64,000 nt of DNA, taken from assembly GCF_905475395.1 (NCBI RefSeq), contig NC_058339.1, forward strand, positions 7,696,001-7,760,000, written 5' to 3'. Of this stretch, positions 15,020 through 45,410 are shown piece by piece. Under the pieces are notes generated by a model. The model did no database searches. It was not told where the DNA came from and saw nothing but the letters and a program-made list of their open reading frames with translations. This DNA is from Chrysoperla carnea (taxonomy: Eukaryota; Arthropoda; Insecta; Neuroptera; Chrysopidae). The position numbers and the translations under genes were made by a program. How positions within the stretch are numbered: the first letter of the stretch is position 1; each line of letters starts with the position of its first letter.

Positions 15020-15690
15020 GTATGCTAGTTTTTCGCTAGCTACTCAGAAACTTATTAGAGCTAGGTTATTTTCGAGAACTTTGAAAAGTATGATCCAAAT
15101 ATAGTAGGATTACATACCTGGTTTATCACAATTGGATAAAATTTGGATGTGATAGAGCAAAATTAAATTTTTGTATTTTGATGACGTCATAAAGTTAAAA
15201 AATTCTATTTTCTTGATAACACAGGCAAAATTGATCCGATCTTATTGAAATTTTTTTTGAAACCCACTAATTTTGGGCCATTCTTTACAGTTGTGATGCC
15301 TGTTTTTCGCTAGCTATCACTAATGTGCTTAATTCCGAGACCAAGATTCCACATTCTGGAAACTGATTAGAGCTAGGTTAATTTTGATAAGAAATTTGAA
15401 AAGTATGACCCAAATTTAGTAGGATTACATACTTATTTTATGAAAATTGGATAAAATTTGGATGTGACAGAGCAAAATTAAATTTTTGGATTCTGATGAC
15501 GTCACCAAGTTAAAAAATTCGATTTTTTTTTATAACAAAGGCAAATTTGTTCCGATTTTATTGGAATTTTTTTTAAACCCACTAATATGGGTTCTTCTTT
15601 TCCGCTGTGGTGCCAGTTTTTCGCTAGTTATCCCTTATGTGCTTAATTCCGGGACTAGGATTCAACATTCTGGAAACCTATTATAGCTGA
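15020..15690 (+). repeat. Tandem repeat family B (about 315-bp unit), array 1
   Basis: Two units plus a shortened first one. Landmarks per unit: GTTTTTCGCTAGCTATCAC, TTGAAAAGTATGA, CAAATTTAGTAGGATTACAT, GATGACGTCA and GAAACCCACTAAT. TTTTTCGCTAG recurs at about 15303 and 15617. Matching arrays lie at 51695-52440 (minus) and 59130-59970, with a single unit at 18610-18990. Confidence 0.8.
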
Positions 15691-18609: not shown

Positions 18610-18990
18610 CCAAATCCGTAACTAGGCCGTTCAATTTTTTTTGAAACCCACTAAGTTTGGGTCATTTTTTTCAGCTGCAATGTCGGTGTTTTTCTAGCTA
18701 TCATTAATGAGCTAAATTTCGGAACCAGGACTTCACGTTCTCGAAACCAATTAGAGCTAGGTTAATTTTGATCACAAATTTGAAAAGTATGACCCTACTT
18801 TAGTAGGATTACATACTTGTTTTAGCAAAATTGGACAAAATTTTGATGTTATAGAGTAAAATTAAAATTTTTGGTTTCTGATGACGTCATGAAGTTAATA
18901 AATTCGATTTTTTGGATAATACAGGCAAATTTGATCCGATTTTATTGTAATTTTTTTTGAAATCCACTAATTTTAGTTCATTTTTTTCCA
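18610..18990 (+). repeat. Tandem repeat family B, single unit
   Basis: Carries the family B landmarks in order (GAAACCCACTAA, GAGCTAGGTTAATTTTGAT, TTTAGTAGGATTACATACTT, GATGACGTCATGAAGTTAA) as one unit plus a partial one. Confidence 0.75.
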
Positions 18991-19755
18991 CTAATTCTTC
19001 TAATAACTTCTTAGGTAACGTATAAACAAATTTTTTAGGACAAAAGCCTATTTATTTACACACAAATAATTTTTCACTTGAACATTCTGTATATGAAGGT
19101 CATCTTGATCTATGTTAGTACAAACACATACACAAAAAAGATACATTACAAAGTCGTACAAAGTGGCTTGGTACTCTAAAAGTCTAAAATGCATCATCAT
19201 TATCCACAGAGAATTGTGTTGTATATACATAAACAGCTATACACGTAGAATTTTTCTACGTATATTCAATATTAGCTGTGAACTATCCGCTTCGCTGGGA
19301 AATTTAAATTTTAAATACAAATATTATTGTGGTAAACCTTCACTTCATATGCCGTCACTTATTTTTCTTTTGTTCACAATTTCGTCGATTTTCTTATTTT
19401 GATACGAAGCCCTAATTTTAGGACAAAAGCCCTAGAATTTTTTTATCTCCAATTTCGATAAAACTCAGTATATAAGGTAATTTTGACTCAAAAAAGTACA
19501 AAAATCGGGTGCATTTGTTGACTGGTCGAATAATTTTTGAGATACGGACTAAAATCGATACAAATATTGCGATATCTCAAAAACTATGCATCCAATCATT
19601 AAATTAACCTGATTTTTATACTATTTGATCATCCATTATTAATTACGATTAACAGTTTTAAAAAAGAATTCACCGTGTACATTGTCGTTAAGTAGTTAAC
19701 TACGAATCGCTTCTGTTGGCCATTCCACAAGCTTTTATGTGTGTATGATATGTAA
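18991..19755. other. Intergenic, no gene supported
   Basis: A 96-codon plus-strand ORF (19112-19402) and an opposite 60-codon ORF lack domains. AGGACAAAAGCC occurs twice (about 19037 and 19419), pointing to a small duplicated non-coding segment. Confidence 0.4.
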
Positions 19756-20356
19756 TTTATATGCAGGGCCGGATTTAAATTTCTGCCGCCCTGGGGCACT
19801 GAAGAAAATGCCGCCCTATGACTGAAATTTTATTTTAATAGTTTGGATATCTTATTTAAAAAAATTAGAATAACTAATTAATTGCAGAAAATTTATTATG
19901 TATTACATATTATTTATTACTGTTCTTTTAAATTTAAATTAATTAGTGTTATTGGATAATTCTCCAATTTTAGGCAAATTCATTGATCAATTAAAAAAAT
20001 TTCAAGTTTCTGTTATCAAAAAGACATAGATAATTTGAAAATATTTTTAATTCTTCAAAAAAACTATATTTCTGGAATTTATCAATTCCAGAAAATACAA
20101 ATATCAAATTTTATTTTTGCAAACCTTTATGGAAATAAATTGATTAAACTATTTTAATAGTTTTCACTTAAATTTCCTATATTATAATAACCCATGTAGG
20201 AACCGCCATAGTTGAACGACGGGGCCTAGCCTGGTCCAGTACTGGGGATCCCAGCTTTGGCGCCCCGATATTGGCCCATGCTTGAGCCAAGATGAAATAA
20301 TTAGCCTTGGCCGACCCAACTATTGCCCGAGCCTGGGACAAGGCTGGGTTGCCCAG

Positions 20357-21805
20357 CCTTGGCCGATCCAATGATTATCCAAGCCTGGGCCAACATGGGT
20401 TTGCCATAGAACGGCCAACGCAAGGGAGCCCAGTCTTGGGCCAAGACTAGGCATCCTAGCCTTGGCCAATCCAATGATTATCCAAGCCTGGGCCAACATT
20501 GGTTTGCCATAGAACGGCCAACGCAAGGGAGCCCGGTCTTCGGCCAAGACTTGGCATCCTAGCATTGGCCAATCCAATGATTATCCAAGCCTGGGCCAAC
20601 ATTGGTTTGCCATAGAACGGCCAACGCAAGGGAGTCCAGTCTTGGGCCAAGACTTGGCATCCTAGCCTTGGCCAATCCAATGATTATCCAAGCCTGGGCC
20701 AACATTGGTTTGCCATAGAACGGCCAACGCAAGGGAGCCCGGTCTTCGGCCAAGACTTGGCATCCTAGCCTTGGCCAATCCAATGATTATCCAAGCCTGG
20801 GCCAACATTGGTTTGCCATAGAACGGCCAACGCAAGGGAGCCCAGGCTTGGGCCAAGACTTGGCATCCGAGCCTTGGCCAATCCAATGATTATCCAAGCC
20901 TGGGCCAACATTGGTTTGCCATAGAACGGCCAACGCAAGGGAGCCCAGGCTTGGGCCAAGACTTGGCATCCGAGCCTTGGCCAATCCAATGATTATCCAA
21001 GCCTGGGCCAACATTGGTTTGCCATAGAACGGCCAACGCAAGGGAGTCCAGTCTTGGGCCAAGACTTGGCATCCTAGCCTTGGCCAATCCAATGATTATC
21101 CAAGCCTGGGCCAACATTGGTTTGCCATAGAACGGCCAACGCAAGGGAGTCCAGTCTTGGGCCAAGACTTGGCATCCTAGCCTTGGCCAATCCAATGATT
21201 ATCCAAGCCTGGGCCAACATTGGTTTGCCATAGAACGGCCAACGCAAGGGAGCCCGGTCTTCGGCCAAGACTTGGCATCCTAGCCTTGGCCAATCCAATG
21301 ATTATCCAAGCCTGGGCCAACATTGGTTTGCCATAGAACGGCCAACGCAAGGGAGCCCAGGCTTGGGCCAAGACTTGGCATCCGAGCCTTGGCCAATCCA
21401 ATGATTATCCAAGCCTGGGCCAACATTGGTTTGCCATAGAACGGCCAACGCAAGGGAGCCCAGTCTTGGGCCAAGACTTGGTATCCTAGCCTTGGCCAAT
21501 CCAATGATTATCCAAGCCTGGGCCAACATTGGTTTGCCATAGAACGGCCAACGCAAGGGAGCCCAGTCTTCGGCCAAGACTAGGCATCCTAGCCTTGGCC
21601 AATCCAATGATTATCCAAGCCTGGGCCAACATTGGTTTGCCATAGAACGGCCAACGCAAGGGAGCCCAGTCTTGGGCCAAGACTAGGCATCCTAGCCTTG
21701 GCCAATCCAATGATTATCCAAGCCTGGGCCAACATTGGTTTGCCATAGAACGGCCAACGCAAGGGAGCCCAGTCTTGGGCCAAGACTAGGCATCCTAGCC
21801 TTGGC
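20357..21805. repeat. 103-bp satellite, 14 units with exact period
   Basis: ATGATTATCCAAGCCTGGGC recurs at 20371, 20474, 20577, 20680 and so on to 21710, always 103 bp apart and without indels. Units differ at a few sites, such as CCAGTCTTGGG, CCGGTCTTCGG or CCAGGCTTGGG, and CATCCTAGCC or CATCCGAGCC. Overlapping minus-strand ORFs of 74 and 101 codons arise because 103 is not a multiple of three, and are not genes. Confidence 0.95.
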
Positions 21806-22373
21806 TGACAATATTCAATTATTGAAGGGAAATCGCAGAATAAATCGTCATTTTATTATTATTATTATTATTTAATTAATTACATTGATGACATAAACTC
21901 CTGAAATGGACACATTTGACATTGTAAAAATTTTAAATACCTAACAAAAATTGGCATATACAACCAAAAGGTATACAATGCGCATGTGTAATACTGTTTA
22001 TGGAGTAGGTACATGTACTTACAATAACTTCCTCCTTCTCTGTCTTTTAGTCACTATCCTTTTTACAAAGTAATATTTTTTTTCAAAACCTCTCACTAGT
22101 AAGATGTTCTAGTAAGGTGTATATAAACATACAATGTTATCGCTTCTCGGCTCAATGAGTTAAACTCAACGTGCAGTATGTGTTCTTATCAACTCAATAT
22201 ATGGTACGCCTCGCATTGCGAGACCAGTATATTAAACTATTATTTGGAACACGGTAGATTGTTAGGAGCTTGCTCCTCTTCTACCGCGGGTTGACTCAGT
22301 ATTGCGGTACAGCTGGGGTTGGCCCTGTCAAATGAATCACAAAATAGAATTCTTCATAAAATAATCTTAAAAC

Positions 22374-22661
22374 TTAACTATGGCCTAGCCCTGCCAACCA
22401 GGCATGGGCCAGACTTAAAACTTAACTATGGCCCAGCCCTGCCAGCCAGGCATGGGCCAGACCTAAGACTAAACTATGGCCCAGCCCTGCCAACCAGGCA
22501 TGGGACAAACTTAAAAATTAACTATGGCCCAGCCCTGCCAACCAGGCGTGGGCCAGACCTAAAACTTAACTATGGCCCAGCCCTGCGAACCAGGCATGGG
22601 CCAAACTTAAAAATTAACTATGGCCCAGCCCTGCCAACCAGGCGTGGGCCAGTCGAGGTAA
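22374..22661. repeat. 48-bp tandem array, about 6 units
   Basis: Each unit contains TAACTATGGCCCAGCCCTGC then CAGGCATGGGCCAGA. The period is 48, so a 171-codon ORF runs through it with a repeated LNYGPALPTRHGPDL-like peptide. The ORF has no other sign of being a gene. It shares the TGGGCC motif with the 103-bp satellite but not its unit. Confidence 0.9.
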
Positions 22662-22997
22662 CCAGTCTTGGGCCAGCATTATCATTCCAGACTTTACCCA
22701 AGTCTGGGCCAAGTCTGGCTTACAAGTCTGGCCCAGAGTTCTGCATAGTTGGACCAAGCCTGGGCCAAGCCTGGGCCCGCCATACTTTCCTACATGGGAA
22801 TATACAAAATTTTGATTTGATACATAATGCATAAACTATATTTCTTGAAAAATAAAATATTTATTTAAAAGAATTAGTTAATTATATATTGTATTGAAAA
22901 TATTTTCTCACTTTCCAAATTTTGCCGCCCTAGAAAATTTGCCGCCCTGGGCACTAGCCCCGACTGCCCCTAGTGTAAATCCACCACTGTTTATATG

Positions 22998-23280: not shown

Positions 23281-24096
23281 CTTGGGGTATGGGTATGGAG
23301 GTTAGCGGGCCATGCTCGAGCATCGCGCCTCGAAGCAATGGTTCAGAGCACCTAGCCAAATAGACCCTTGTACTCTATCCCCGCTACGCTTTTCAGTGGC
23401 TATTATAACCAACTGATGAACTGAAACCCAGGATTTGCCTTGCGCTGAGTTTCCTAATTTCTTCTGGTTCGATTATGGCCGGACCAAACCATTTCCTTCG
23501 CTGTTGTATGAGCGCCGGGCAGTAACAGAGAAAGTGGATCGATGTTTCTTCTGAATTTTCTCCGCATCTGTCACACGCGGGAGATATTTTCCAATCTGAT
23601 GTTGGAACTTGTTCAGGTTATCATGCCCTGTGAGTAACTCTACGATGAGTCTAATATCAGCTCTGTTTAGTTTCAAGATCTCCTCGGCTCTGTTACCGAG
23701 CGAGTTTCCTTCACCCAACAGGCTTTTGGCGATTCGCTCTCCCTCGTAGCTGGTCCATGCCTTTAATTGTTGGGTTTTCAGATTATTTCCTAATATGTTA
23801 AGACCTTCTTGGTATGGCATCTTCGCAAGCTTATCTTGAGTGGGAGCCATGGTGGTTCCCAGTTTGGCCAGCTTGTCTGCTCTCTCATTACCGTTCCAAC
23901 CAGAGTGTCCGGGGATGCAGGTAATATTGACTTTACTGTGCCTCGCCAGGTTTTTTAGACTGCTTCTAGTCTTCTTGACGAGTCGCGATGACACTGTACA
24001 GTTTGATAGAGCTTTGAGTGCTGCTTGACTGTAAATCGCATTTGTCGGAGGTTTTTTCAAATTTTGTAAAAATTCACTTGTAGCGAGTTTCTTCAT
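23281..24096 (-). pseudogene. 5'-truncated jockey/I-like LINE: RNase H remainder, C-terminal region and 3' UTR
   Basis: The minus-strand reading frame (23473-24096) contains an RNase H C-terminal half: IYSQAALKAL (the usual DSQAAL, with the catalytic Asp lost), then ITCIPGHSGWNGNERADKLA, the classic GH.G..GNE.AD motif. It then has LLTGHDNLNKF. Near the end the frame is shifted: the cysteine/histidine motif CDRCGENSEETSIHFLCYC appears only in a different frame (about 23515-23575). The 3' UTR ends toward 23281 in repeated CCATACCC. A second copy is at 50719-51074. It encodes no complete protein. Confidence 0.85.
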
Positions 24097-26275
24097 TGAA
24101 ATTGAACAATAATGGTCTTTTATTGTATTTATTGGAACATTTTTTTCGAAGAATGCCTAAATCTTGCAGGAACAATTATACGAAATAATAATTTTTATAC
24201 GAAAAATTTTGGGTAAAACTTTTCAGTTCGTTTTTGTCTTCGTTTTATTTCGGATATCAAATAAGATATATGCATACTTTATTAAGTGTGTACGTACGTA
24301 ATAAAGTTATGATAATGTATTTAAGTTACATAAGTAGCTCTTTTATAAAGGGAAAATGAAAACATTATGCTTAAACTATGTAAGTATATGTAATATTAAC
24401 ACTTAACATGTTTGTGCTTTTAATTGTTTTATTTTATGTTAATTTTAATTTATTTTAAAAGCAAGAATGCTTAAAACAACAAAAACAAAACAACCCATCT
24501 TACAATTTCATCTTTTTATCACATTTAGCATCTAGTACAAGAAATAGAGATTTTGAACACAACCATTTTAGAAAATTGCTGAAAATTAAGTTTTAGGGAG
24601 TGAAAAGTACCTATAAGTGAAATTTGCTAGAGAAATAATGTATAGTTTGGCCACCATCTCGTTAGGGATTTACAATAATATGAAGTAAGAAGAGTTCTTA
24701 CGGACCGGACGTTCCTATGTACAAAACAAAGAAAGAGAGACAGGTATGTAGTGTGTGAGTACCTATTTTCAGCCAATTTTTATACTAGAAAGTATAATAA
24801 ATAATGAAAATGTGCAGAAATACGTCAGTTACCTTAAAATTTGTATAGATTTCAATTTTGTGGGATAGAATTGTGTTTTTGAATTTTATTCTGATTTTTC
24901 TTTCCTCCCTTTTTCAAAAGCTTCAAGTGCCCGAAATTTATTAATGTTATTTTTACCTACTTTCAACTATCTAATAAACTAGTTTTCAACGATTCCCTAA
25001 AATCTTTTAATTAAATAATTACTCTATCGCTTGTACTTGCTATAATTCATATTAAATAAGTTTTAAAGAAAGTGTTTTTATTCATCACAGAAAGTTAAGT
25101 TTACCAGATTTATATTATACGACATTCATCAAACACGTTACATTGTGATATTGTACAAAAAACTTTTGAACGTGACTATTATTGAGATTTTCATGTAATA
25201 CCCCAAGAAATTAAATCTTCAAATTGTTTCAGTCAGAAACCAAAAATTTTGATCCTGTGTATTTTTGCAGAAAATCCATTAATTTTTTTAATTTGAATTC
25301 GTTTGAAGTGTTTCCAAATTATACACAACGTAGCAAAAGTAACGTGAAAATTCCAGAACTTTCCAAGCATTTTTTAAGTGAAAATTTCTATAGGCATGTT
25401 AGACGATATTTGGTAGGGTAAAATCTTATGGATTTACACAGATATATAACTCCGTATCCTAGAAAACTAACACTCTTCTCAATCGAAAAAACGATACCTA
25501 TGTAATAATAACTAAAACTGTACAATTAACTATTAACTTAATGATTCTGATCTTTGGTAACTTCTGATTACTGTTCATAGGAGGTGATACTTATGATTTA
25601 TTTACATTTTTATATTAATGGCTATGTAAACCAAATATTTGGAGACCAATTCAAATATTTAAATTCAAAGTTTTAAGTTTTCACTTCCGTCGACAGTTCC
25701 CATGGCTGGCTCTCTTGTTCTTTTTACAAAAAACCGTAATTCTTAGGCTTTATCAAGTTTGTTTTTAAATTTATTACGATTCTTTAGACTATTTGTATTA
25801 TAATAAATGCCTTCTGTTTGATTTCTTATCTTATTATTGTTCTCATTTAATCAATCCTTCTTTAAATCACTTTTATAAATAGATACGCATGTAATCCTTA
25901 CCTGTCATGTTTATGGATATTACAGATAATTTACATGATCTTATTGTAATTAAACAAATTACATACTCATTCTATTGACAACACCTCATCATATGTCACA
26001 CGTATTGACATAATCCTTCTCATAACTCAGTATTGACAGTGTAGAATTATTATAGATATAACCCAAATTCAGATGGATAACATCTATTAATTTATTAAAT
26101 TAAATAATTAATACATTTCACTAATTAAACATTTATTAGAAGAGTCGAATGAGATTGATTTGATAATTTCTGCGTTCAACAAATCTACATGTAAAAATTG
26201 AATGGACTCAAAAAACCTATTCTTCTGTTTATGCTGAAGCAAACTGTAAACTTAATTTTTTCGAAGTCAAAATGT
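24097..26275. other. Long AT-rich intergenic stretch, no gene seen
   Basis: No exon or repeat boundary that I can support. A 65-codon plus-strand ORF (25224-25421) lacks recognisable features. TACGTACGTA is present at about 24291. Confidence 0.45.
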
Positions 26276-29820: not shown

Positions 29821-31683
29821 TCAGGATTGGATTGTCATTAAAGTATGTTGCTGTTTTCTCGGGTATGTTCCAAGTTTATTCGAAAGCATTTCATAAACAA
29901 ATACAAAAATTGAAATCAGTAAACCTATACTGTAAATTATGAAAACAGATTGCAAATGTTCCATTGAGAATATAATTTGATTAGAATCATTTGCCACTGA
30001 GCTTTTTGAGAAAATCAAACTCATGATTGCTTTAATTTCATACTCTATCAATCCGCTCTCATACATTTGAGTTAATAAACCATTAACTTTTTCGTAAATT
30101 GGCAAACCTTTACGTAAAATTATTATTGTTGGGCCTGTGATCAGTGGCTTTTCGAATATGTAAATACTTTTCCCTTTTTTATCAAAATCATTAAAACTTG
30201 AAAAAAATTTAGCTGCATGATAAGATACCATTGTAGCTGTGTTACGTTCATACGCAGTGCGATTTAAACAATCAAGACGGCCAGGACAAGTTTCTGTTAT
30301 TGAGGCAACTCGATTATATTCAGCGAGCGAATACTGAGTTAAACCTAATTTTACAGCTTTTGAGATACAGATCTTTAAATTTGAATCAAAAAGTTCTTGA
30401 AAATTTGTAATTTGGTGTTCATAGATTGGGATCGTAAAAACGTTAATCAATACCGATTCAAATAACGATTTTATAACTAAAATGTACATCAAAAAGAAAA
30501 ATAGCATACAACGAATTCCAATCTTATTCAGAGGCAACTTGAACGGCGAATCATTATCTAAAATTAATGCCCAAATATATAACAAAAGTTTGATTTTGCT
30601 ACCTCCATTTTCAACAACGTTTATTGCCAGAAACACAAATGTTACACTTAAAGTAGAGATGATAATTGAATACCATACATTAGCTTCGAACAAATAAGCT
30701 AAAACTTCACTCTTTGGAACAAGGCCAGCTTTAGGTACAACCCAATGCATTGATTGAAATAAACAAACCGTAGAAAAGTAATCAAATTTGTGCGTCAAAT
30801 AATTATCATAAGGACTCCCTCCATAAATGATATCTGCGGATCCATTCAATAAATATACAACATGACCATCCCAATGTAAATTTTTTATGCGTCGAACTGT
30901 ATAATCATATTCACTTTTAATAAATCCAGTCGTAAAATTTAAACGTTCCTGTACTCTATTTATAATATTGTATTCTAAGCCATACCTTTTGCCTTTAATT
31001 ACAAAGAAGTATGGCAAAATTTCCATCGGTACTATTTTATACGTCATAAAATTAAAATCAGTATAATATTTTGTAGAAAACAATTGATCTTTTCGTACCA
31101 TTTTATTCGTTTCGTTGTTAGATAAATCAATTTGAGTTATTAGGTCAACTGAAGAATTTTGATTACGATAAATTTGACTTAAATCGTCAGTTTTCCACGA
31201 ATAAACATCAATTGAAATATTTTCATTAGCCACACAAACTATAAAATGATTAATAAAATATTTTTTAAATAATTGAGAAATATTGGATTTATTAAAAATT
31301 TTATTTTCAGTTAAAATTATAAATTTTGCTCTTGGATTCCAAGATGAGCTGTTTTTAAAAACATTCAAACTTTCTTGTAGTTGTAAAATAGTTTCAAAAT
31401 ATAACACATAATTATTTGCACGTTCGTAATAATCATTAAAAGTTGCATTAAAAATAAGAATTTTAATATTTTTAAACGGTAAATTTATTTTTTCCATAAA
31501 AAATAAGCTGACATATGTGTCATCGTTTGAGTTTACCGTGGATTCAACTAACATTTCGAATTTATTTAAAAAATTTTCATTCCAAACATTATATTTATAT
31601 ATTGGAAAATAATTCAGTAAGAAAGTTTTTGAATAGCTGATATAAATTACTACTAAAATGAAACTAAACTGTATCATGACCAT
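29821..31683 (-). CDS. Divergent ionotropic receptor IRa (620 aa, intronless)
   Basis: Ligand-gated cation channel of the insect IR family, expected in the dendritic membrane of chemosensory neurons. Layout: signal peptide 1-19; divergent amino-terminal region to about 210; S1 ligand-binding half about 215-320 (EILPYFFVIKGKRYGLEYNI, NGSADIIYGGS, MHWVVPKAGLVP); TM1 335-357; re-entrant pore loop 364-378 (LLLYIWALILDNDSP); TM2 387-417; S2 420-570 with a CPGRLDC cysteine pair; TM3 about 573-598 (SMEHLQSVFIIYSIGLLISI). Length and single-exon structure suit the divergent IRs rather than the conserved co-receptors. Residues 1 to about 95 match IRb. From there to about residue 535 it matches IRd. The last ~80 residues are its own. 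The ligand is unknown. The start follows the conserved GTTTAAAAGACATGG context. Confidence 0.9.
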   Translation of the reverse strand: MVMIQFSFILVVIYISYSKTFLLNYFPIYKYNVWNENFLNKFEMLVESTVNSNDDTYVSLFFMEKINLPFKNIKILIFNATFNDYYERANNYVLYFETILQLQESLNVFKNSSSWNPRAKFIILTENKIFNKSNISQLFKKYFINHFIVCVANENISIDVYSWKTDDLSQIYRNQNSSVDLITQIDLSNNETNKMVRKDQLFSTKYYTDFNFMTYKIVPMEILPYFFVIKGKRYGLEYNIINRVQERLNFTTGFIKSEYDYTVRRIKNLHWDGHVVYLLNGSADIIYGGSPYDNYLTHKFDYFSTVCLFQSMHWVVPKAGLVPKSEVLAYLFEANVWYSIIISTLSVTFVFLAINVVENGGSKIKLLLYIWALILDNDSPFKLPLNKIGIRCMLFFFLMYILVIKSLFESVLINVFTIPIYEHQITNFQELFDSNLKICISKAVKLGLTQYSLAEYNRVASITETCPGRLDCLNRTAYERNTATMVSYHAAKFFSSFNDFDKKGKSIYIFEKPLITGPTIIILRKGLPIYEKVNGLLTQMYESGLIEYEIKAIMSLIFSKSSVANDSNQIIFSMEHLQSVFIIYSIGLLISIFVFVYEMLSNKLGTYPRKQQHTLMTIQS

Positions 31684-31765
31684 GTCTTTTAAACACTTTA
31701 TGAGAAAATTGAGTTCCGTAAATATCCATTTACTATTTAAATGATATTTTCGGTTGATATTATTC
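31684..31765 (-). promoter_or_regulatory. Conserved promoter-proximal block of IRa (also at IRb, IRd, IRe)
   Basis: Immediately upstream of the ATG, AAAGTGTTTAAAA and, about 70 bases out, ACCGAAAATATCATTTAAAT are shared with IRb (36905-36986). They are recognisable upstream of IRd (42629-42712) and IRe (45322-45410), although the farther upstream sequences of IRd and IRe are unrelated. It may hold the 5' UTR or a core promoter. Confidence 0.4.
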
Positions 31766-32059
31766 TACAATACATATATATTAAATATTAAAATAAAAAT
31801 ATTATTCATTAAATAAATTAGTACGACAAACTATAATCGTTAACTGTTATCATTATGTCAATATCAAAAAAATATAAGTACTCTAAATGTATAAATTAAA
31901 AAAATACAAGTAAATGCAAGTGAAAACAAACAATTGACTGAGTTAATTGTTGAAATACCATGCATAGTCAGTGTTGATTTCTTAACACATTACACATACA
32001 TACATATGACACATACATAACTGATAATCAAGTATAGTACATATTATAAAGTTTCCGCC

Positions 32060-32475
32060 TAATTGGCTCCCTCACGGGTAAACAGTGATGTTTACGAAAA
32101 AATGTTTCAAACAAAAGTTGTTTAATTTTTGATAAGGAACATTTTTTACATTTAAACTTTTGTTCTATCTCTAACGGTTTACAAGATGGGTCCTACGGAC
32201 CCAAGACCCAATTGACCTATGATGCTCATTTACGAACTTGACCTCACTTTTTACGTCCTGAGTACGCTGTAAAAATTTCAGCTCGATATCTTTTTTCGTT
32301 ATTGAATTATCGTATCCACAGACGGACGGACGGACAACCGGAAATGGACTAATTAGGTGATTTAGTGAACACCTATGACAAAATTTTTTTCCTAGCATCA
32401 TTATTTTTAAGCGTTACAAACTTGGGACTAAACTTAATATACTATGTATATTTCATATATACATGGTATAAAAAT
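32060..32475 (+). repeat. Dispersed repeat family A, copy 4 (IRa-IRb spacer)
   Basis: A well preserved family A copy: TGTTTCAAACAAAAGTTGTT, AACGGTTTACAAGATG, CTCATTTACGAACTTGACCT, a GACGGACGGACGGAC run, GCGTTACAAACTTGGGAC and TATATTTCATATATACATGG. The 76-codon and 62-codon ORFs lying in it are artefacts of the repeat. Confidence 0.85.
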
Positions 32476-32984
32476 GTACGGAGTGTAAAAAAAATACTTG
32501 TAATCGAAAACTCTGATTTAAAAAAAAAAAAAAATCCAACTATAAAAGGTTGAAAGCGTTGTGATAAGAAATGATCTTGAAATTGATGTGGAAGACGTTT
32601 TTAGGGCTTATTTGTACCAACTTTGAAAATTTCAACAAAATAAACACTTCTTTTAAAATCGAGCAAAAAATTTTATGTCGACACATGTATACATAAAACT
32701 GAGTCTAAAGAGGGTAAAACTGTAGAGTCTAAAGATTATGAAACTCGACTTCAAAGACCTTGGAAATCTACTTCAAGATATATTTCCAATTTTATTTTTA
32801 AAGAAGTGATGACTTTGAAATATACCTTGATATCGATTTTCATAAATTCTCATGAATTTTGAAATGAGCTCTAAAAGTGAATGGATAATGTTTGTTTTAA
32901 AAATTGCATATTCACTTTAAAAACATTACCCAGCTTTTGTAATATATATGAAATAATTTCAAAGAAACAAGGGTTTTAAATTTC

Positions 32985-33127
32985 TTAATTACCGATTTCT
33001 ATTTTTCCCATAATAATATCTCCCAAATTAGACCTCAGATCAAAATTTGGTAAAGCGATTTTCCGATTGTTTTGATATGCTTATGTAGAAAATGTTTAGG
33101 TCTGCAATGAATTATAGAACACCCTGT
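32985..33127. mobile_element. Diverged single end of the 9.3-kb foldback family
   Basis: CAAATTAGACCTCAGATCAA, ATTTGGTAAAGCGATTTT and the end GAACACCCTGTATA parallel the right arm at about 10015-10118 in order and spacing. The opposite end is missing. It is repeated in the next spacer at 38205-38337. Confidence 0.6.
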
Positions 33128-33132
33128 ATAAC

Positions 33133-33766
33133 TCACTTTCCATATAAATATTATCGAAGATAATAAATGAGAACTCTAGGATATGTCGAAATAAATTTCG
33201 ATTTTTGCCCCAATTCCTAGATCAGTTTTTTGTATTTTTAAAATACGTATTTTCGACTACCAAGTAGTCATCATCAGTAAGAATTAGCTAGTGAATGTTA
33301 CTCTTTGCTAATTTGGTGGCGGACTGCACACTGTTACATTCGTGTTTTTACAATTTATACTGTTCACAGTATCTGTCAAATTGTATTGTCAGTGGCGCTA
33401 GCCAATCAACTGCCATCAGTTGACTAGTCTGGCCAATGAGCATGATACTTGTGCGCAGGCCCATTCGAGCAGGCCAATACTCGAATGGGCCTGCGCACAA
33501 GTATCATGCTCATTGGCCAGACTAGTCAACTGATGGCAGTTGATTGGCTAGCGCCACTGACAATACAATTTGACAGATACTGTGAACAGTATAAATTGTA
33601 AAAACACGAATGTAACAGTGTGCAGTCCGCCACCAAATTAGCAAAGAGTAACATTCACTAGCTAATTCTTACTGATGATGACTACTTGGTAGTCGAAAAT
33701 ACGTATTTTAAAAATACAAAAAACTGATCTAGGAATTGGGGCAAAAATCGAAATTCACTTTCCATA
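33133..33766. mobile_element. Foldback insertion present in only one spacer copy
   Basis: A 12-bp direct repeat TCACTTTCCATA (33133-33144 and 33755-33766) brackets 610 bp. The other spacer copy has a single TCACTTTCCATA at the equivalent site (about 38341), so its empty site is visible. The arms (33194-33472 and 33483-33755) are reverse complements with no mismatch that I noticed, around a 10-bp loop (CAGGCCAATA). The arms are GC-richer than their surroundings. There is no ORF of note. Confidence 0.9.
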
Positions 33767-34232
33767 CATACTGGGCTCCCAATTTAGTTTTTCAGTCACT
33801 CCATACCTAAACAACGTAAGCCAAATTATCAATCTAAATGAAGAGAGTAAATTTAATTCAAAAATTTGAAATCCCTTGAGAATGAGAGACTTCATTGAAA
33901 AAAATAAATACAAATTTACCCCTCACATCCCCTATTTATTTTATTAGTAACTTATTCATTTTTAATTAAGAATAAAACTTCGTTTATTTTGGTACTGGTA
34001 CTCGGAAACTATTTCACTCGTGAGTATTACCGTGTATAATTTCAACTATTGGGAAAAATTTTAATTAATATTTTAAATTGAAAATTATTTATTAATATCC
34101 TTTACAAAGTTAAAATACAATACGTCTTAGAATCTATAGTGCCTAGCCTAAGCATTATCTATAATACATCATCTTATTTCATAAATACATCGAAATATAT
34201 AAACATTTTACATCGTTTCCTAAATGGAAAAA

Positions 34233-34620
34233 TCTCTATATATTATAAATGCGAAAGTAAGCATGTTTGTTTGTTTGTTTGTTTGTTACGCTTTCACGCT
34301 AAAACTAGCGAATGGTTTTTAATAAAAGTGTACAGCAATATAGCTCATATATCAGAATAACACATGAGATATAATTTATAAAGATATATTAATAAAAAAA
34401 AATTTTTAATTAATTTAATTTGACATTACCATAAATTACAGATTTCTGTAAAAGTAGTCATTTGACATTACCATTAATTACAGATTTCTGTAAAAAATAG
34501 TCAATATAAAATATTTCACGGCCATCTTTTCTGATACACACATATAGTTTACCTGTGTAAAACAATACTTACCATTATTTCGAGTGTTATAGAAAGGGGA
34601 TAAGCGAGAGCAATCTTTAT
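34233..34620 (+). mobile_element. Helitron-like 5' end and body (spacer copy 1)
   Basis: Begins A then TCTCTATATATTATAAATGC with a TTTG run, then ACTAGCGAATGGTTTTTAAT and ATAGCTCATATATCAGAATA. These resemble the related element at 49800-50211, which ends in CTAG. A TC start after A is typical of Helitrons. The 3' terminus is not intact here. Copies: 38821-39205, and a part at 40120-40340. Confidence 0.45.
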
Positions 34621-34769
34621 CAATCTTTACTTTTAAACCCAGGAAAGCGAGTGGATATCACTCTAGTCTTATATAAAAACCATTGATAACTAAAATTAAC
34701 CTAAGTTTTACGGATAAGCCGTCCCTAAAACTGGACCTAAAAGAAAAATATTTACAATTTAGATAACAC

Positions 34770-35045
34770 TGGATCAGTTGAAATCGGCATTATGTGGCAT
34801 GCGGTATTGTTTCCTGAAATGCAACGTATGCGGGTTGAATTGGCTCAGTTAGTTGATTTCAGGGAAAGCATTTTTGCGGGTTGATTGGAAATAGGATTTC
34901 GAAATGGTTTGGATGAATAGAAGGACTTTGAAAATCCGCCGAAGAAAACGATTCTGAAATTTTTGCATTTTCGCAAGCTGCAAAGGTGCACCGTTCGACC
35001 AGATTGGGGTAGCGTACGTGAGTACGTTGCCCCGTTTACGTATGC
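34770..35045 (-). mobile_element. Jockey-like reverse transcriptase remnant (spacer copy 1)
   Basis: The minus strand reads TYATPIWSNGAPLQLAKMQK then FQNRFLRRIFKVLL, the YA.P.W...LQ..QNR.LR motif that follows the RT core in jockey-clade LINEs. Beyond it a deletion of about 40 bp is shared with the copy at 39360 but absent from the copy at 40440. It adjoins the IRb stop codon, so IRb's 3' UTR would come from this sequence. Confidence 0.7.
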
Positions 35046-35047
35046 GT

Positions 35048-36904
35048 TTAAGTAAATATTAGAGTAACTCTCCGTTTTTTCGGAAATATTTTAAGCTTAT
35101 TCGAAAGTATTTCATAAAAGAATAAGCAAATTGAAATCAATAAACCTATACTGTAAATTATGAAAACAGATTGCAAATGTTCCATTGAGAATACAATTTG
35201 ATTAGAATCATTTGCCACTGAGCTATTTGAAAAACTCAAACTCGTGACTGCTTTAAGTTCATACTCTATCCATCCACTCTCATACATTTGAGTTAATAAA
35301 TCATTCATCTTTTCATAAATTGGCAAACCCTTACGTAAAATTATTATTGTTGGTACTGTGATTAGTGGCTTTTCGAATATGTAAACACTTTTCCCATTTT
35401 TATCCCAATCATTAAAACTTGAAAAAAATGTAGCTGCGTGATAAGATACCATTGTAGCTGTGTTACGTTCATTTGCAGTACGAATTAAACAATCAAGACG
35501 CCCAGGACATGTTTCTGTAATTGAGGCGACTCGATTGTATTCAGCGAAAGTATATATAGTTAAAGCTAATTTAACAGGTTTTGAGATACAAAACTTTAAA
35601 TTTGAATCAAAAAGTTCTTGAAAATTTGTAATTTGGCGTTCATAAATTGGGATCGTAAAAACGTTAATCAATACTGATTCAAATAAAGATTTTATAACCA
35701 AATTGTACATCAAAAAGAAAAATAGCATACAACGAATTCCAATTTTATTTAAAGGCAACTTAAACGGTGAATCATTATCTAAAATTAATGCCCAAATATA
35801 TAACAAAAGTTTGATTTTGTTTCCTTTATTTTCAAGAACGTTTATTGCCAGAAACACAAATGTTACACTTAAAGTAGAGATGATAATTGAATACCATACA
35901 TTAGCTTCGAACAAATAAGCTAAAACTTCACTCTTTGGAACAAGGCCAGCTTTAGGCACAACCCAATGCATTGATTGAAATAAACATACAGTAGAAAAAT
36001 AATCAAAATTATGCGTTAAATAATTAATATGAGCACTCCCTCCATAAATTATATCTGCGGATCCATTCAATAAATAAACAACATGACCATCCCAATGTAA
36101 ATTTTTTATACGTCGAGCTGCATAATCATATTCACTTTTAATAAATCCAGTCGTAAAATTTAAACGTTCCTGTATTCGTTTTATAATATTGTATTCTAGG
36201 CCATACTTTTTACCTTTTATTACAAAAAAATATGGCAAAATTTCCACGGGTACTATTTTATACGTCATAAAATTAAAATCAGTATAATACTTTGTAGGAA
36301 ACAATTGATCGTTTCGTATCAATTTGTTCATTTCGTTGTTAGATAAATCAATTTGACTGATTAGTTCAACTGAAGAATTTTGATTACGATAAATTTGACT
36401 TAAATCGTCAGTTTTCCACGAATAAATATCAATTGAAACATTTTCATTAGCCACACAAACTATAAAATGATTAATAAAATATTGTTTAAATAATTGTGAA
36501 ATATTGGATTTATTAAAAACTTTATTTTCAGTTAAAATTATAAATTTAGCTCTTGGGTTCCAAGATGAGCTGTTTTTAAAAACATTCAAACTTTCTTTTA
36601 GTTGTAAAATAGTTTCAAAATATAACACATAATTATTTGCACGTTCGTAATAATCATTAAAAGTTGCATTAAAAATAAGAATTTTAATATTTTTAAACGA
36701 TAAATTTATTTTTTCCATAAAAAATAAGCTGACATATGTGTCATCGTTTGAGTTTACCGTGGATTCAACTAACATTTCGAATTTATTTAAAAAATTTTCA
36801 TTCCAAACATTATATTTATATATTGGAAAATAATTCAGTAAGAAAGTTTTTGAATAGCTGATATAAATTACTACTAAAATGAAACTAAACTGTATCATGA
36901 CCAT
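35048..36904 (-). CDS. Divergent ionotropic receptor IRb (618 aa, intronless)
   Basis: Same architecture as IRa: signal peptide, variable N-terminal region, S1 (EILPYFFVIKGKKYGLEYNI to MHWVVPKAGLVP), TM1 about 335-357, pore loop, TM2 with the unusual LMYNLVIKSLFES (IRa has LMYILVIKS), S2 with CPGRLDC, and TM3. The 5' part and more than 1 kb of upstream DNA are almost identical to IRa. S1 and S2 differ more, for example SAHINYLTHNF against SPYDNYLTHKF, and SKPVKLALTIYTFAEYN against SKAVKLGLTQYSLAEYN, which should alter the ligand pocket. The C-terminus (ILSNKLKIFPKKRR) matches the truncated copy at 39637 and IRd. Confidence 0.9.
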   Translation of the reverse strand: MVMIQFSFILVVIYISYSKTFLLNYFPIYKYNVWNENFLNKFEMLVESTVNSNDDTYVSLFFMEKINLSFKNIKILIFNATFNDYYERANNYVLYFETILQLKESLNVFKNSSSWNPRAKFIILTENKVFNKSNISQLFKQYFINHFIVCVANENVSIDIYSWKTDDLSQIYRNQNSSVELISQIDLSNNEMNKLIRNDQLFPTKYYTDFNFMTYKIVPVEILPYFFVIKGKKYGLEYNIIKRIQERLNFTTGFIKSEYDYAARRIKNLHWDGHVVYLLNGSADIIYGGSAHINYLTHNFDYFSTVCLFQSMHWVVPKAGLVPKSEVLAYLFEANVWYSIIISTLSVTFVFLAINVLENKGNKIKLLLYIWALILDNDSPFKLPLNKIGIRCMLFFFLMYNLVIKSLFESVLINVFTIPIYERQITNFQELFDSNLKFCISKPVKLALTIYTFAEYNRVASITETCPGRLDCLIRTANERNTATMVSYHAATFFSSFNDWDKNGKSVYIFEKPLITVPTIIILRKGLPIYEKMNDLLTQMYESGWIEYELKAVTSLSFSNSSVANDSNQIVFSMEHLQSVFIIYSIGLLISICLFFYEILSNKLKIFPKKRRVTLIFT

Positions 36905-36986
36905 GTCTTTTAAACACTTTATGAGAAAATTGAGTTCCGTAAATATCCATTTACTATTTAAATGATATTTTCGGTTGATATTATTC
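36905..36986 (-). promoter_or_regulatory. Conserved promoter-proximal block of IRb
   Basis: Nearly identical to the IRa block at 31684-31765: AAAGTGTTTAAAAGACATG at the start and ACCGAAAATATCATTT about 70 bases upstream. The similarity here reflects recent duplication, so it adds little independent evidence of function. Confidence 0.35.
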
Positions 36987-37229
36987 TACAATACATATAT
37001 ATTAAATATTAAAATAAAAATATTATTCATTAAATAAATTAGTACGACAGACTGTAATCGTTAACTGTTATCATTATGTCAATATCAAAAAAATATAAGT
37101 ACTCTAAATGTATAAATTAAAAAAATACAAGTAAATACAAGTGAAAACAAACAATTGACTGAGTTAATTGTTGAAATACACATACATACATGTGACACAT
37201 ACATAACTGATAATCAAGTATAGTACATA

Positions 37230-37665
37230 TTATAAAAGTTCCGCCTAATTGGCGCCCTCACGGGTAAACAGTGATGTTTACGAAAAAATGTTTCAAACAA
37301 AAGTTGTTTAACTTTTGATAAGGAACATTTTTTACATATAAACTTTTGTTCTATCTCTAACGGTTTACAAGATGAGTCCTACGGACCCAAGACCCAATTG
37401 ACCTATGATGCTCATTTACGAACTTGACCTCACTTTTTACGTCCTGAGTACGCTGTAAAAATTTCAGCTCGATATCTTTTTTCGTTTTTGAATTATCGTG
37501 TCCACAGACGGACGGACGGACAACCGGAAATGGACTAATTAGGTGATTTAGTGAACACCTTTGACAAAATTTTTTTCCTAGCATCATTATTTTTAAGCGT
37601 TACAAACTTGGGACTAAACTTAATATACTATGTATATTTCATATATACATGGTATAAAAATGTAC
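37230..37665 (+). repeat. Dispersed repeat family A, copy 5 (IRb-IRc spacer)
   Basis: Duplicate of the copy at 32060-32475 with few differences, carried along by the spacer duplication and not by independent transposition. Confidence 0.85.
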
Positions 37666-38204
37666 GGAGTGTAAAAAAAATACTTGTAATCCAAAACTCT
37701 GAATTTAGAAATAAAAATCCAACTATAAAAGGTTGAAAGCGTTGTGATAAGATATGATCTTGAAATTGATGTGCAAGTCGTTTTTAGAGCTTATTTGTAC
37801 CAACTTTGAAAATTTAAAAAAAAAAAACTTCTTTTAAAATCGAGCAAAAAATTTTATGTCGACACATGTATACATAAAACTGAGTCTAAAGAGAGTAAAA
37901 CTGTAGAGTCTAAAGATCATTAAACTCGACTTCAAAGAACTTGGAAATCTACTTCAAGATATATTTCCAAATTTAAGTTTATAAGATATATTTCCAATTT
38001 TATTTTTAAAGAAGTGATGACTTTGAAATATACCTTGATATCGATTTTCATAAATTCTCATGAATTTTGAAATGAGCTCTAAAAGTGAATGGATAATGTT
38101 TGTTTTAAAAATTGCATATTCACTTTAAAAACATTACCCAGCTTTTGTAATATATATGAAATAATTTCAAAGAAACAAGGGTTTTAAATTTCTTAATTAC
38201 CGAT

Positions 38205-38340
38205 TTCTATTTTTCCCATAATAATATCTCCCAAATTAGACCTCAGATCAAAATTTGGTAAAGCGATTTTCCGATTGTTTTGATATGCTTATGTAGAAAA
38301 TGTTTAGGTCTGCAATGAATTATAGAACACCCTGTATAAC
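38205..38340. mobile_element. Diverged foldback-family end, spacer copy 2 (empty site beside it)
   Basis: Same as 32985-33127 and ends GAACACCCTGTATA. It is followed directly by the single, uninterrupted TCACTTTCCATA that is the empty target of the 33.1-kb insertion. Confidence 0.6.
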
Positions 38341-38820
38341 TCACTTTCCATACATACTGGGCTCCCAATTTAGTTTTTCAGTCACTCCATACCTAAACAA
38401 CGTAAGCCAAATTATCAATCTAAATGAAGCGAGTAGTAAATTTAATTCAAAAATTTGAAATCCCTTGAGAATGAGAGACTTCATTGAAAAAAATAAATAC
38501 AAATTTACCCCTCACTCCCTTATTTATTTTATTAGTAACTTATTCATTTTTAATTAAGAATAAAACTTCGTTTATTTTGGTACTGGTACTCGGAAACTAT
38601 TTCACTCGTGAGTATTACCGTGTATAATTTCAACTATTGGGAAAAATTTTAATTAATATTTTAAATTGAAAATTATTTATTAATATCCTTTACAAAGTTA
38701 AAATACAATACGTCTTAGAATCTATAGTGCCTAGCCTAAGCATTATCTATAATACATCATCTTATTTCATAAATACATCGAAATATATAAACATTTTACA
38801 TCGTTTCCTAAATGGAAAAA

Positions 38821-39205
38821 TCTCTATATATTATAAATGCGAAAGTAAGCATGTTTGTTTGTTTGTTTGTTTGTTACGCTTTCACGCCAAAACTAGCGAA
38901 TGGTTTTTAATAAAAGTGTACAGCAATATAGCTCATATATCAGAATAACACATGAGATATAATTTATAAAGATATATTAATAAAAAAAAAATTTTTAATT
39001 AATTTAATTTGACATTACCATAAATTACAGATTTCTGTAAAAGTAGTCATTTGACATTACCATAAATTACAGATTTCTGTAAAAAATAGTCAATATAAAA
39101 TATTTCACGGCCATCTATTCTGATACACACATATAGTTTACCTCTGTAAAACAATACTTACCATTATTTCGAGTGTTGTAGAAAGGGGATAAGCGAGAGC
39201 AATCT
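38821..39205 (+). mobile_element. Helitron-like sequence, spacer copy 2
   Basis: Duplicate of 34233-34620 with a few substitutions (for example CACGCCAAAACTAGCG against CACGCTAAAACTAGCG). Confidence 0.45.
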
Positions 39206-39359
39206 TTATCAATCTTTACTTTTAAACCCAGGGAAGCGAGTGGATATCACTCTAGTCTTATATAAAAACCATTGATAACTAAAATTAACCTAAGTTTTAC
39301 GGATAAGCCGTCCCTAAAACTGGACCTAAAAGAAAAATATTTACAATTTAGATAACACT

Positions 39360-39636
39360 GGATCAGTTGAAATCGACATTATGTGGCATGCGGTATTGTT
39401 TCCTGAAATGCAACGTATGCGGGTTGAATTGGCTCAGTTAGTTGATTTCAGGGAAAGCATTTTTGCGGGTTGATTGGAAATAGGATTTCGAAATGGTTTG
39501 GATGAATAGAAGGACTTTGAAAATCCGCCGAAGAAAACGATTCTGAAATTTTTGCATTTTCGCAAGCTGCAAAGGTGCACCGTTCGACCAGATTGGGGTA
39601 GCGTACGTGAGTACGTTGCCCCGTTTACGTATGCGT
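39360..39636 (-). mobile_element. Jockey-like RT remnant, spacer copy 2
   Basis: Near-identical duplicate of 34770-35045, including the internal deletion. It adjoins the truncated IR copy at 39637. Confidence 0.7.
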
Positions 39637-40120
39637 TTAAGTAAATATTAGAGTAACTCTCCGTTTTTTCGGAAATATTTTAAGCTTATTCGAAAGTATT
39701 TCATAAAAGAATAAGCAAATTGAAATCAATAAACCTATACTGTAAATTATGAAAACAGATTGCAAATGTTCCATTGAGAATACAATTTGATTAGAATCAT
39801 TTGCCACTGAGCTATTTGAAAAACTCAAACTCGTGACTGCTTTAAGTTCATACTCTATCCATCCACTCTCATACATTTGAGTTAATAAATCATTCATCTT
39901 TTCATAAATTGGCAAACCCTTACGTAAAATTATTATTGTTGGTACTGTGATCAGTGGCTTTTCGAATATGTAAACACTTTTCCCATTTTTATCCCAATCA
40001 TTAAAACTTGAAAAAAATGTAGCTGCGTGATAAGATACCATTGTAGCTGTGTTACGTTCATTTGCAGTACGAATTAAACAATCAAGACGCCCAGGACATG
40101 TTTCTGTAATTGAGGCGACA
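39637..40120 (-). pseudogene. IRc: 5'-truncated IR copy, last ~160 codons only
   Basis: Starts abruptly within S2 (..ASITETCPGRLDCLIRTA..) and keeps TM3 and the stop codon. It is almost identical to the 3' end of IRb (35048-35530). It has no signal peptide, S1, TM1 or pore, so it cannot make a channel. An ATG at 40041 opens 134 codons but would give only S2 plus TM3. The break at about 40117-40120 joins ...GAGGCGAC to spacer sequence ATTACCATAAATTTGAC. The trinucleotide GAC occurs at that point in both parents (IRb GAGGCGACTCG and spacer TTTGACATTACC). Confidence 0.9.
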
Positions 40121-40440
40121 TTACCATAAATTTGACATTACCATAAATTACAGATTTCTGTAAAAAATAGTCAATATAAAATATTTCACGGCCATCTTTT
40201 CTGATAATGAATGAATAATTACGACTATTATCCATTTAAAAAAAATAGAAAACCATACATATATTTTACGTGTGTAAAACAATCCTTACCATTATTTCAA
40301 GTGTTATAGAAAGGCGATAAGCGAAAGCAATCTTTATCAATCTTTACTTTTAAATCCAGGGAAGAAAATTAACCTGGGCGGATAAGCCGTCCCTAAAACT
40401 AGACCTTAAAGAAAAATATTTACAATTTAGATTACACTGG
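40120..40440 (+). repeat. Older spacer copy 3 (Helitron-like tail region)
   Basis: ACATTACCATAAATTACAGA, TATTTCACGGCCATCTTTTC and GGCGATAAGCGAAAGCAATC parallel 34430-34620 and 39010-39205, with more divergence and a unique ~60-bp insertion. No gene. Confidence 0.6.
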
Positions 40441-40771
40441 ATCAGTTGAAATTGACATTATGTGGCATTCGGTATTGTTTCCTGAAATGCAACGTACGCG
40501 GGTTGAATTGGCCCAGTTAGTTGATTTCAGGGAAAGGATTTTTACGGGATGATTGGAAATAGGATTTCGAAATGGTTTGGATGAAGATTTCGATTATGGG
40601 GTGCCCAATTTCTTTGTGAAGAGCCGGATATCATAGAAGGATTTTGAAAATCCGCCGAAGACAACGATTCTGAAATTTTTGCATTTTCGCAAGCTGCAAC
40701 GGTGCAACGTTCGACCAGATTGGGGTAACGTACGTCAGTACTGACGTACGTTACCCCGTTAACGTGTGCGT
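40440..40771 (-). mobile_element. Jockey-like RT remnant, spacer copy 3 (least deleted)
   Basis: Reads RFLRRIFKILL then PALHKEIGHPIIEIFIQTIS on the minus strand. It retains about 40 bp that spacer copies 1 and 2 have lost, so it is closer to the ancestral insertion. It abuts the IRd 3' end and contains a 36-bp perfect palindrome at 40722-40757. Confidence 0.7.
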
Positions 40772-42628: not shown

Positions 42629-43473
42629 GATTTTTAAACACTTTTTTAGAAAATTGATTCCCTAAAAAATCCATTTAATATGTAAATGATATTTTCGGTC
42701 GATATCATTCATTACACTATAATAATTGTACATAATTATATTATTTATTAAATAATTCAATGAGACAGATCGTGGTCGTTAGCGATCGTAATCATGTTAA
42801 AAAAAATATATTTACTTAAAATGTATAAATAAATAAGTAAATAAAAAAAAATGTACTGGATGTAGAAAAAACACCACCTATTGTTCAAATTTACTCCGGT
42901 TTTAGAAAAAGAAAGCTAATTATAAAATATTAAAAGCGTTGCACTAAGTGACGATCCTGAAATTGACGTGGAAATCGATTATTAAAATTTCTATACTTCG
43001 TGTTTGTCTCTAGGTAATTCTGTGATAAACTATGGCTTTGAAGCTAATTCCGGGAATGGAAAAACATCTTTCCGAGATACACACTTAACATAGGTAAATT
43101 GAAAATAATGATTTTGTTTAATGTAATTAAGTTTATTGAGTATTTTCATACAAAATTTGATTGAAATACAAAAAATTTATAAATTTTTCAATAATGAATA
43201 GAAAATTTAAAAAAATCCGCTAGATGGCAGCACTATGGTGAGTACAAATATATCCTGCCATCTAGAGGATCTTTTTTTAATCTTCAGAGGAAAAAGGCTA
43301 ATTCTGATCAAACATTTTTCAAAATTTGAGCACTTATATATTAATTGCATTGAATCGATGATGTTAATTGAATAAACGTGCTTTTTTTGGGGTCTTGATT
43401 GATTTATTCAATTTTCTTCATACGAAATTCGCTTAGTTGATGCCACTTCAGAGTTACCAAAATATTTTTAACG
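42629..43473. other. IRd-IRe spacer with paired CTCF-like motifs
   Basis: Short spacer without the TE cargo of the other spacers. The IRd promoter-proximal block is at 42629-42712. CCGCTAGATGGCAGC (43217-43231, plus) and CCTCTAGATGGCAGG (43254-43268, minus) face each other and each fits the CTCF consensus with one or two mismatches. No gene. Confidence 0.4.
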
Positions 43474-45321: not shown

Positions 45322-45410
45322 TGGCTTTTAAACACTTTATGATTAAATTTAAATTGCCCCTGAAATATCCTGTTTAAATAATTTTTTCGGTTTGACATTT
45401 ATTATTATTC
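45322..45410 (-). promoter_or_regulatory. Conserved promoter-proximal block of IRe
   Basis: ATAAAGTGTTTAAAAGCCA at the start and a diverged ACCGAAAAAATTATTTAAA about 65 bases upstream. Because IRe is the most diverged gene, conservation here is the best evidence that the block is functional. Confidence 0.4.

Follow-up and report, generated by a model that had tools for sequence, protein, structure and literature searches.

How does a stretch of 3.2 kb that holds two different tandem arrays come to be flanked, as a whole, by an exact 8-bp duplication? The question is raised by positions 19756 to 22997 of the window, namely, the 64,000 nucleotides of Chrysoperla carnea analyzed here (C3:7696001-7760000 of the assembly searched, 559.5 Mb in 337 contigs). 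The first-pass annotation had proposed a composite hAT transposon that moved the arrays and an inner block as a single unit. Comparison with other copies in the genome yields a different answer: the locus is nested, a miniature inverted-repeat transposable element (MITE), hAT-like in appearance, having been interrupted by a separate DNA transposon. This inner transposon has captured a gene for the U2 small nuclear RNA (snRNA), the full-length sequence of which lies between the arrays and had been overlooked, and it has spread through the lacewing genome. As an explanation of the locus in its entirety, a hAT-like MITE hit by a separate transposon with a captured U2 gene appears to us highly probable.

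The outer shell of the locus consists of the following features:

19756..19763, unstranded: left 8-bp target duplication of the MITE, TTTATATG, exact
19764..20190, plus strand: left part of the hAT-like MITE with its CAGGGCCGG end, 93-96% identical to other copies
22799..22989, plus strand: right part of the hAT-like MITE with its CCACCACTG end, placed by comparison with other copies
22990..22997, unstranded: right 8-bp target duplication of the MITE, TTTATATG, exact

That the exact duplication encloses the entire 3.2 kb, as had been noted, is the observation that speaks for transposition as one composite hAT; among 60,758 window positions, 3 have an exact 8-mer match at such a distance, the TTTATATG pair being one of them. 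The genomic copies of the hAT left end, however, contradict such a unit. When the genome was searched with this end, 40 copies were scored, out of 416 candidates, and the 39 other than the window's, 93-96% identical, were all fetched; most of the matches start at or near the hAT terminus and end at the inner boundary. At the place of the inner block, the site is uninterrupted in 39 of 39 copies, with the left part running across it (up to 6 errors were allowed in the call), and 33 of the 39 have an exact 8-bp duplication at their called ends (18/20 plus 15/19). Because all of these copies lack the inner block, it must be a later insertion into the MITE, and the 8-bp duplication therefore belongs to the MITE. 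For the copies examined, the composite hAT is refuted, all the more so as the inner ends, with duplications of their own, recur at five other loci next to sequences unlike the hAT junction; we give that scenario practically no credence. Most copies of the MITE are about 600 bp long, the structural exceptions being L053, whose right part holds additional sequence, and L062 and L063, in which that part is short; a CCCATATAGGAA match at L057:695 was inspected and left uncounted. Short inverted ends of the form CAG...CTG are typical of hAT elements, and those of the MITE, CAGGGCCGGATTTA and CAGTGGTGGATTTA, are of this kind (11 of 14 alike); the 8-bp target duplication, in the window and in those 33 copies, is likewise that of hAT. 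By these sequence features, the outer element is a hAT-like MITE, presumably mobilized by a hAT transposase.

The inner element has the structural hallmarks of a transposon in its own right:

20189..20190, unstranded: left 2-bp target duplication AA, which fits the unfilled MITE form TATAATAATATAC
20191..22798, plus strand: inner non-autonomous DNA transposon, 2608 bp, with the U2 gene; the same ends are present in L106 and L108-L111
20191..20202, plus strand: left terminal inverted repeat CCCATGTAGGAA, 12 bp, from shuffles and other copies
20191..20354, plus strand: left GGCC-rich subterminal block, 97.6-100% identical in L106-L111
20355..21805, plus strand: 103-bp tandem array, 14.1 units, 97% matches; 4.9-14.1 units in L106-L111
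21806..22031, plus strand: A+T-rich spacer, homologous from about 21957 onward to the U2 genes L098 and L116
22366..22652, plus strand: 48-bp tandem array, 6.0 units, 89%; 3.4-6 units in five of L106-L111
22653..22798, plus strand: right GGCC-rich subterminal block, 96.6-100% identical in the five other complete copies
22787..22798, minus strand: right terminal inverted repeat, 12 bp (TTCCTACATGGG), from shuffles and other copies
22799..22800, unstranded: right 2-bp target duplication AA, from comparison of six copies

The two arrays, with 14.1 and 6.0 units, and a GGCCCA-rich inner block with inverted ends of its own had been correctly recognized at the outset. The 12-bp pair CCCATGTAGGAA / TTCCTACATGGG is exact and sits at the very borders of this G+C-rich block; a 12-mer inverted pair turned up in 2 of 3000 shuffles of both boundary stretches. 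GGCC is found 56 times in the 1,451-bp array vs 57 times in the 60,758 bases beyond the reported unit. Inverted matches between the array blocks of the two sides are short, the longest of those listed being 17 nt at 94%. Further evidence comes from the other copies. A genome search with window positions 21806-22365 (560 bases, U2 included) gave 45 rows, 40 of 63 candidates having been scored; after removal of 5 host U2 genes, the other 40 rows merged into 36 loci, seven of which, the window's among them, are 99-100% identical over the 560 bases. Seven longer stretches were fetched: five contain complete copies (L106 and L108-L111), one a partial copy (L107), and one a pair of host U2 genes (L112). 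The complete copies, the window's included, are 2608, 2608, 2299, 1384, 1795, and 1811 bp long and all share the inverted ends, the left block, the 103-bp repeats, the upstream region, U2, and the right block. Matching 2-bp flanks are present in 6 of 6 (AA, TC, TA, TA, GA, TA; by chance, about 3e-7), and beside the ends of the other five, the sequence is unlike the hAT junction. Thus, ready-made arrays are indeed dispersed by a transposon, as had been suggested, but the carrier is the inner element rather than the hAT.

Not every component is kept in every copy. L107 lacks the right end, with only 34 bp of the right GGCC-rich block; the diverged copies L109-L111 have lost the A+T-rich spacer or have other sequence in its place; and a 48-bp array, called for the window and L106-L110, was not called for L111, where the 103-bp repeats have overlapping periods. 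L111 also contains a second, inverted right end within the copy (L111:2975-3347), suggestive of rearrangement or nested insertion, and beside the copy in L110 (C3:10795900-10799500), positions 2313-2736 hold three transfer RNA matches in a 171-bp tandem array. As for the family of the inner element, several candidates were considered and set aside. Its ends, CCC...GGG, recall piggyBac, which, however, duplicates TTAA; Tc1/mariner elements duplicate TA only, whereas three of the six copies have AA, TC, or GA; and a foldback type was dismissed, given that the two boundary stretches contain no exact 12-bp inverted pair besides the end itself. CACTA/EnSpm elements make duplications of 2-3 bp and have ends that begin with CACTA or CACTG: the 2-bp duplication in all six copies agrees with this, but the inner ends begin with CCCATG. 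A 4-bp duplication, AATA, was ruled out for the inner element because the other copies show 2 bp. In viral and prokaryote collections, pattern scans with the inner end, the 103-bp unit, the hAT end, U2, and the 48-bp unit gave nothing or short matches to viral contigs; blastn of the whole element against the 35 viral loci from the inner-end scans gave a best E value of 0.21; and for the reading frame over the 48-bp array, no homologue at E 0.001 and no Pfam family was found.

What the inner element carries between its arrays is a U2 gene:

22032..22138, plus strand: homologue of the U2 promoter region, 102-103 of 107 positions identical to the U2 genes L116 and L098
22139..22332, plus strand: full-length U2 snRNA sequence (RF00004, 103.1 bits, model positions 1-192)
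22171..22182, plus strand: branch-recognition segment, U2 nucleotides 31-42, including the bond between nucleotides 38 and 39; a deletion hot spot in other copies

Of all Rfam families, this is the only one with a match over threshold in the window, at 103.1 bits vs a gathering score of 46 (E 1.1e-19), and U2 was matched in 20 of 20 sources scanned, namely, element copies, L098, and the host pair L112, at 51.8-155.5 bits. Genome-wide, 46 U2-family loci were scored out of 54,013 first-look candidates, all above the cut-off, so that 46 is a lower bound; 27 of these overlap transposon loci, 4 overlap host-type rows, and 15 are neither. Alignment of 13 of the U2 loci, fetched with 180 bases upstream, points to the source of the captured gene. 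Over positions 22032-22138, the element is identical to L098 at 103 of 107 positions and to L116 at 102 of 107 (both at C5:67.68 Mb), compared with 74 of 105 for L112 and 46 of 107 for the best-scoring U2 gene, L113; altogether, about 180 bp of upstream DNA are homologous between the element and L098/L116. The U2 body of the window matches L098 at 174 and L116 at 173 of 194 positions. In the stretches read around L098 and L116 (about 420-450 bp each), neither a transposon end nor an array was found at the expected places. Since the upstream DNA is 95-96% identical to that of L098/L116, the best interpretation is that U2 was captured as DNA, together with its promoter region. The host U2 genes themselves form inverted pairs 3-4 kb apart (L112, C2:77782600-77787700, and C5:67.682-67.685M), and in L112, L117, L116, and L098, GTGTAGTG replaces GTGTAGTA in the branch-recognition segment; several U2 types therefore coexist in this genome.

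In the history that we propose, a hAT-like MITE of about 600 bp was hit by a separate non-autonomous DNA transposon. The U2 gene of this transposon would have been taken up as DNA along with its promoter region and would then have spread by means of transposase supplied in trans, and the arrays would grow and shrink as arrays of transposase-binding motifs.

Does the captured gene still make a working RNA? Conceivably, the product is a variant U2 RNA of use to either the transposon or its host. In the window copy, 39 of 45 Rfam pairs are standard, as against a mean of 31.7 for randomly placed changes (0 of 5000 trials reach 39), and the promoter-homologous region is 96-97% identical in the diverged copies L109-L111. 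The pairing result is weak, however, because its reference is the family consensus rather than the ancestor, and host U2 variants share some of the changes, including the altered Sm site. The Sm-site stretch is almost unchanged, with 2 of 440 cells different from L098, and its alteration probably predates the capture because it is already present in L098 and L116. Folding of U2 alone was uninformative (z -1.58). An initial assessment of the window U2 as perhaps functional, made from the kept pairing, was downgraded after the host variants and other copies had been aligned. In the window, 16 of 72 conserved columns are changed, vs 3 of 72 in one and 4 of 65 in the other of two unrelated U2 genes, L036 and L037, which come from mis-binned contigs and served as controls (L037 is truncated at the 5' end; a third, L038, was cut short and left out). 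The base changes include nucleotides 21, 25, 26, 34, and 40, so that nucleotides 25, 26, 34, and 40, among the near-invariant ones for branch recognition and U6 pairing, are altered; nucleotides 25, 26, and 34 we take to pair with U6 and the branch site.

Nor is the U2 cargo better kept than the rest of the transposon. In four of the 15 possible pairs of complete copies (L111 being aligned over part of U2), differences in the U2 body vs the ends amount to 15/169 vs 6/310 (p 7e-4), 19/169 vs 9/310 (p 4e-4), 7/88 vs 3/310 (p 1e-3), and, with no clear excess, 4/104 vs 6/310 (p 0.28). Pooled over all 15 pairs, which are not independent, the differences are 163/2344 in the U2 body, 58/1570 in the promoter-homologous region, and 71/4650 in the ends; the promoter-homologous region, too, is therefore no better conserved than the ends. 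Moreover, 10 of the 19 additional copies that were read have lost the branch-recognition site, partly or wholly. That the element makes a functional U2 RNA thus seems to us very improbable.

The losses at the branch-recognition site are not scattered. For the deletion survey, 20 middle stretches were chosen over the whole range of identity, with few near-identical copies; L098 being a host gene, this leaves 19 of the 35 element loci besides the window's. In ten of the 19, the bond between U2 nucleotides 38 and 39 is reached or crossed by a deletion, for which there are five alleles (L092/L100; L095; L096/L097/L099; L101/L102; L104/L105), L103 has an altered sequence in this stretch, and the other eight keep it with base changes. 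By eye, seven distinct deletions of at least 3 bp were counted within 22032-22365, five of them at this bond, and when seven deletions of approximately these lengths were placed at random, at least five fell there in 0 of 200,000 trials; an automatic count, which splits the events differently, has 8 of 17 indel alleles touching the site. The cause of these deletions may be cleavage by a retrotransposon, selection against a harmful U2-like RNA, or plain decay. Under the last of these, U2 would ride along neutrally, and its deletions would be commonplace losses at microhomologies as the gene decays. The accumulation of changes in conserved columns far beyond that in the controls is in keeping with this, as is the L101/L102 deletion, which can be placed between two ATC motifs, but five of seven distinct deletions at a single published bond, even one chosen after the cluster had been seen, and a nearly unchanged Sm-site stretch speak against plain decay; we consider it rather unlikely.

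The same bond is the target of known retroelements. In Utopia and Keno retrotransposons, the downstream U2 starts at nucleotide 39 (PMC4640811). In the lacewing genome, U2 from nucleotide 38/39 onward is joined to foreign sequence in L118-L122, the last 35 bp or so of which are nearly identical among the loci; the first 38 or so U2 nucleotides are replaced at all five (C5:15.125M, C2:19.311M, C5:59.569M, C5:67.806M, and C5:67.791M), as would be expected for a U2-targeting retrotransposon in the lacewing. L125 has the same junction, so that at six loci (L118-L122 and L125), the 3' junction is that of Utopia and Keno; in L125, however, the 3' part of U2 and the beginning of a 48-type repeat match the transposon, the left end of which (173 bp, 98.8%) is present at L126, some 0.75 kb upstream. 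Because transposon parts flank the junction insert, one transposon copy (L126+L125) appears to have been hit at its U2. At a further locus, L123 (C3:61736689-61737130), the foreign sequence that meets U2 near this point is another one and may represent a second family with U2 as its target.

These junctions bear on the remaining explanation by selection, under which deletions at the 38-39 bond would have been favored for removing branch-point recognition and sparing splicing, the youngest copies achieving the same by base changes. The deleted stretch is indeed the branch-recognition segment, the window copy has its changes at U2 nucleotides 21, 25, 26, 34, and 40, and in three of the four pairs tested (15 possible), divergence is faster in the U2 body than in the ends. 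Such selection would, however, presuppose expression of U2, cleavage explains no less well why five alleles meet at the retrotransposon junction, and one copy of the transposon appears interrupted at that very bond; it is possible but doubtful. With less assurance than for the nested pair itself, we lean, tentatively, toward a role of the retrotransposons: the U2 cargo might turn each copy of the transposon into a landing site for U2-specific retrotransposons, and the small deletions at the 38-39 bond might be scars of cleavage repair or mark survivors that can no longer be cut. The captured U2 gene would then be a moving target, the copies of which are cut, scarred, or selected to lose the site, a possibility that we put forward as such and do not regard as probable.

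Several observations weigh against the account given here, in its firm as well as in its tentative parts. The commonest unfilled MITE site is TATAATATAC, which, as the pre-insertion site, would require one base in addition to a 4-bp duplication; TATAATAATATAC, with which the AA duplication agrees, is found in only 3 of 39 copies (L065, L067, and L072). No transposase or autonomous partner of the inner element was found in the genome searched with 21806-22365. End-to-end reading covered only six complete copies, that of the window among them; for most of the 36 loci, knowledge is confined to the middle block. The placement of L098 and L116 outside any element, drawn from those 420-450 bp each, is likely; the captured promoter is putative, its presumed activity following from homology. 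The 38-39 bond, although a published site, was picked for testing after the cluster had been noticed. Finally, the one 104-aa frame of the insert that was tested, which crosses the border from the left block of the transposon, has no Pfam and no meaningful PDB match, and the insert is a candidate Utopia-like retrotransposon by its junction and by resemblance.

Elsewhere in the window, positions 29821-45327 hold a tandem cluster of long, similar reading frames with a 1.8-kb stretch duplicated at 99%; the one frame tested has a weak ligand-gated channel match, under the Pfam cut-off, presumably as in insect ionotropic receptors. A repeat family of about 315 bp forms short arrays in both orientations (15047-15688, 18633-18992, 51699-52430, and 59129-59966), an RNase H-domain reading frame close to the MITE (23473-24156) is probably a retroelement remnant, and the window also includes a leucine-rich repeat gene, which shares 95% identity with a protein of Chrysoperla carnea.

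With 27 of the 46 scored U2-family loci due to it, a DNA transposon that carries U2 and its promoter region offers a direct way to ask how snRNA loci multiply and move and why U2-derived copies pile up. It also raises the question of whether surplus U2 copies need to be disarmed, by hosts and by transposons. In addition, it shows in a concrete instance how tandem arrays are seeded at many places in a genome, if by an element other than the one first proposed. The shared target bond renders the interaction of two classes of transposons testable; if the tentative part of our account is true, two classes of mobile elements are in conflict over a stolen snRNA gene.

The dispersal of spliceosomal RNA genes is usually ascribed to retroposition or segmental duplication, and in the titles and abstract openings of the open-licence literature, no description of a transposon carrying a U2 gene was found. 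The closest parallels are partial. Mobile elements with snRNA-derived sequence are represented by the short interspersed nuclear elements with snRNA-derived heads that Kojima reportedly described in 2015; unlike these retroelements, the lacewing element moves the whole gene with its upstream region as DNA, with inverted ends and target duplications. Helentrons, to our knowledge, have no such inverted ends or target duplications. The non-autonomous Helentrons Cg_HINE of the oyster are also mobile and disperse short satellite-like arrays, but their abstract mentions no snRNA gene, whereas the inner element carries U2 (PMC7492417). Tetris, a foldback element of Drosophila virilis, is likewise a non-autonomous DNA transposon, with internal tandem repeats that can feed satellite DNA; there, however, long inverted repeats of up to 1,735 bp enclose the tandem repeats, and the duplications are of 8-10 bp, in contrast to the 12-bp ends, the two differing arrays with a U2 gene between them, and the 2-bp duplication of the inner element (PMC4079207). 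Dada elements, too, are DNA transposons tied to snRNA genes, but they insert into these genes with 6-7 bp duplications, whereas the inner element contains one (PMC3706591). Utopia, a family of U2-targeting non-long terminal repeat retrotransposons, uses the very U2 bond of the junctions in L118-L122 and L125; yet Utopia inserts into U2, whereas the lacewing DNA transposon carries U2 and thereby offers the target (PMC4640811).

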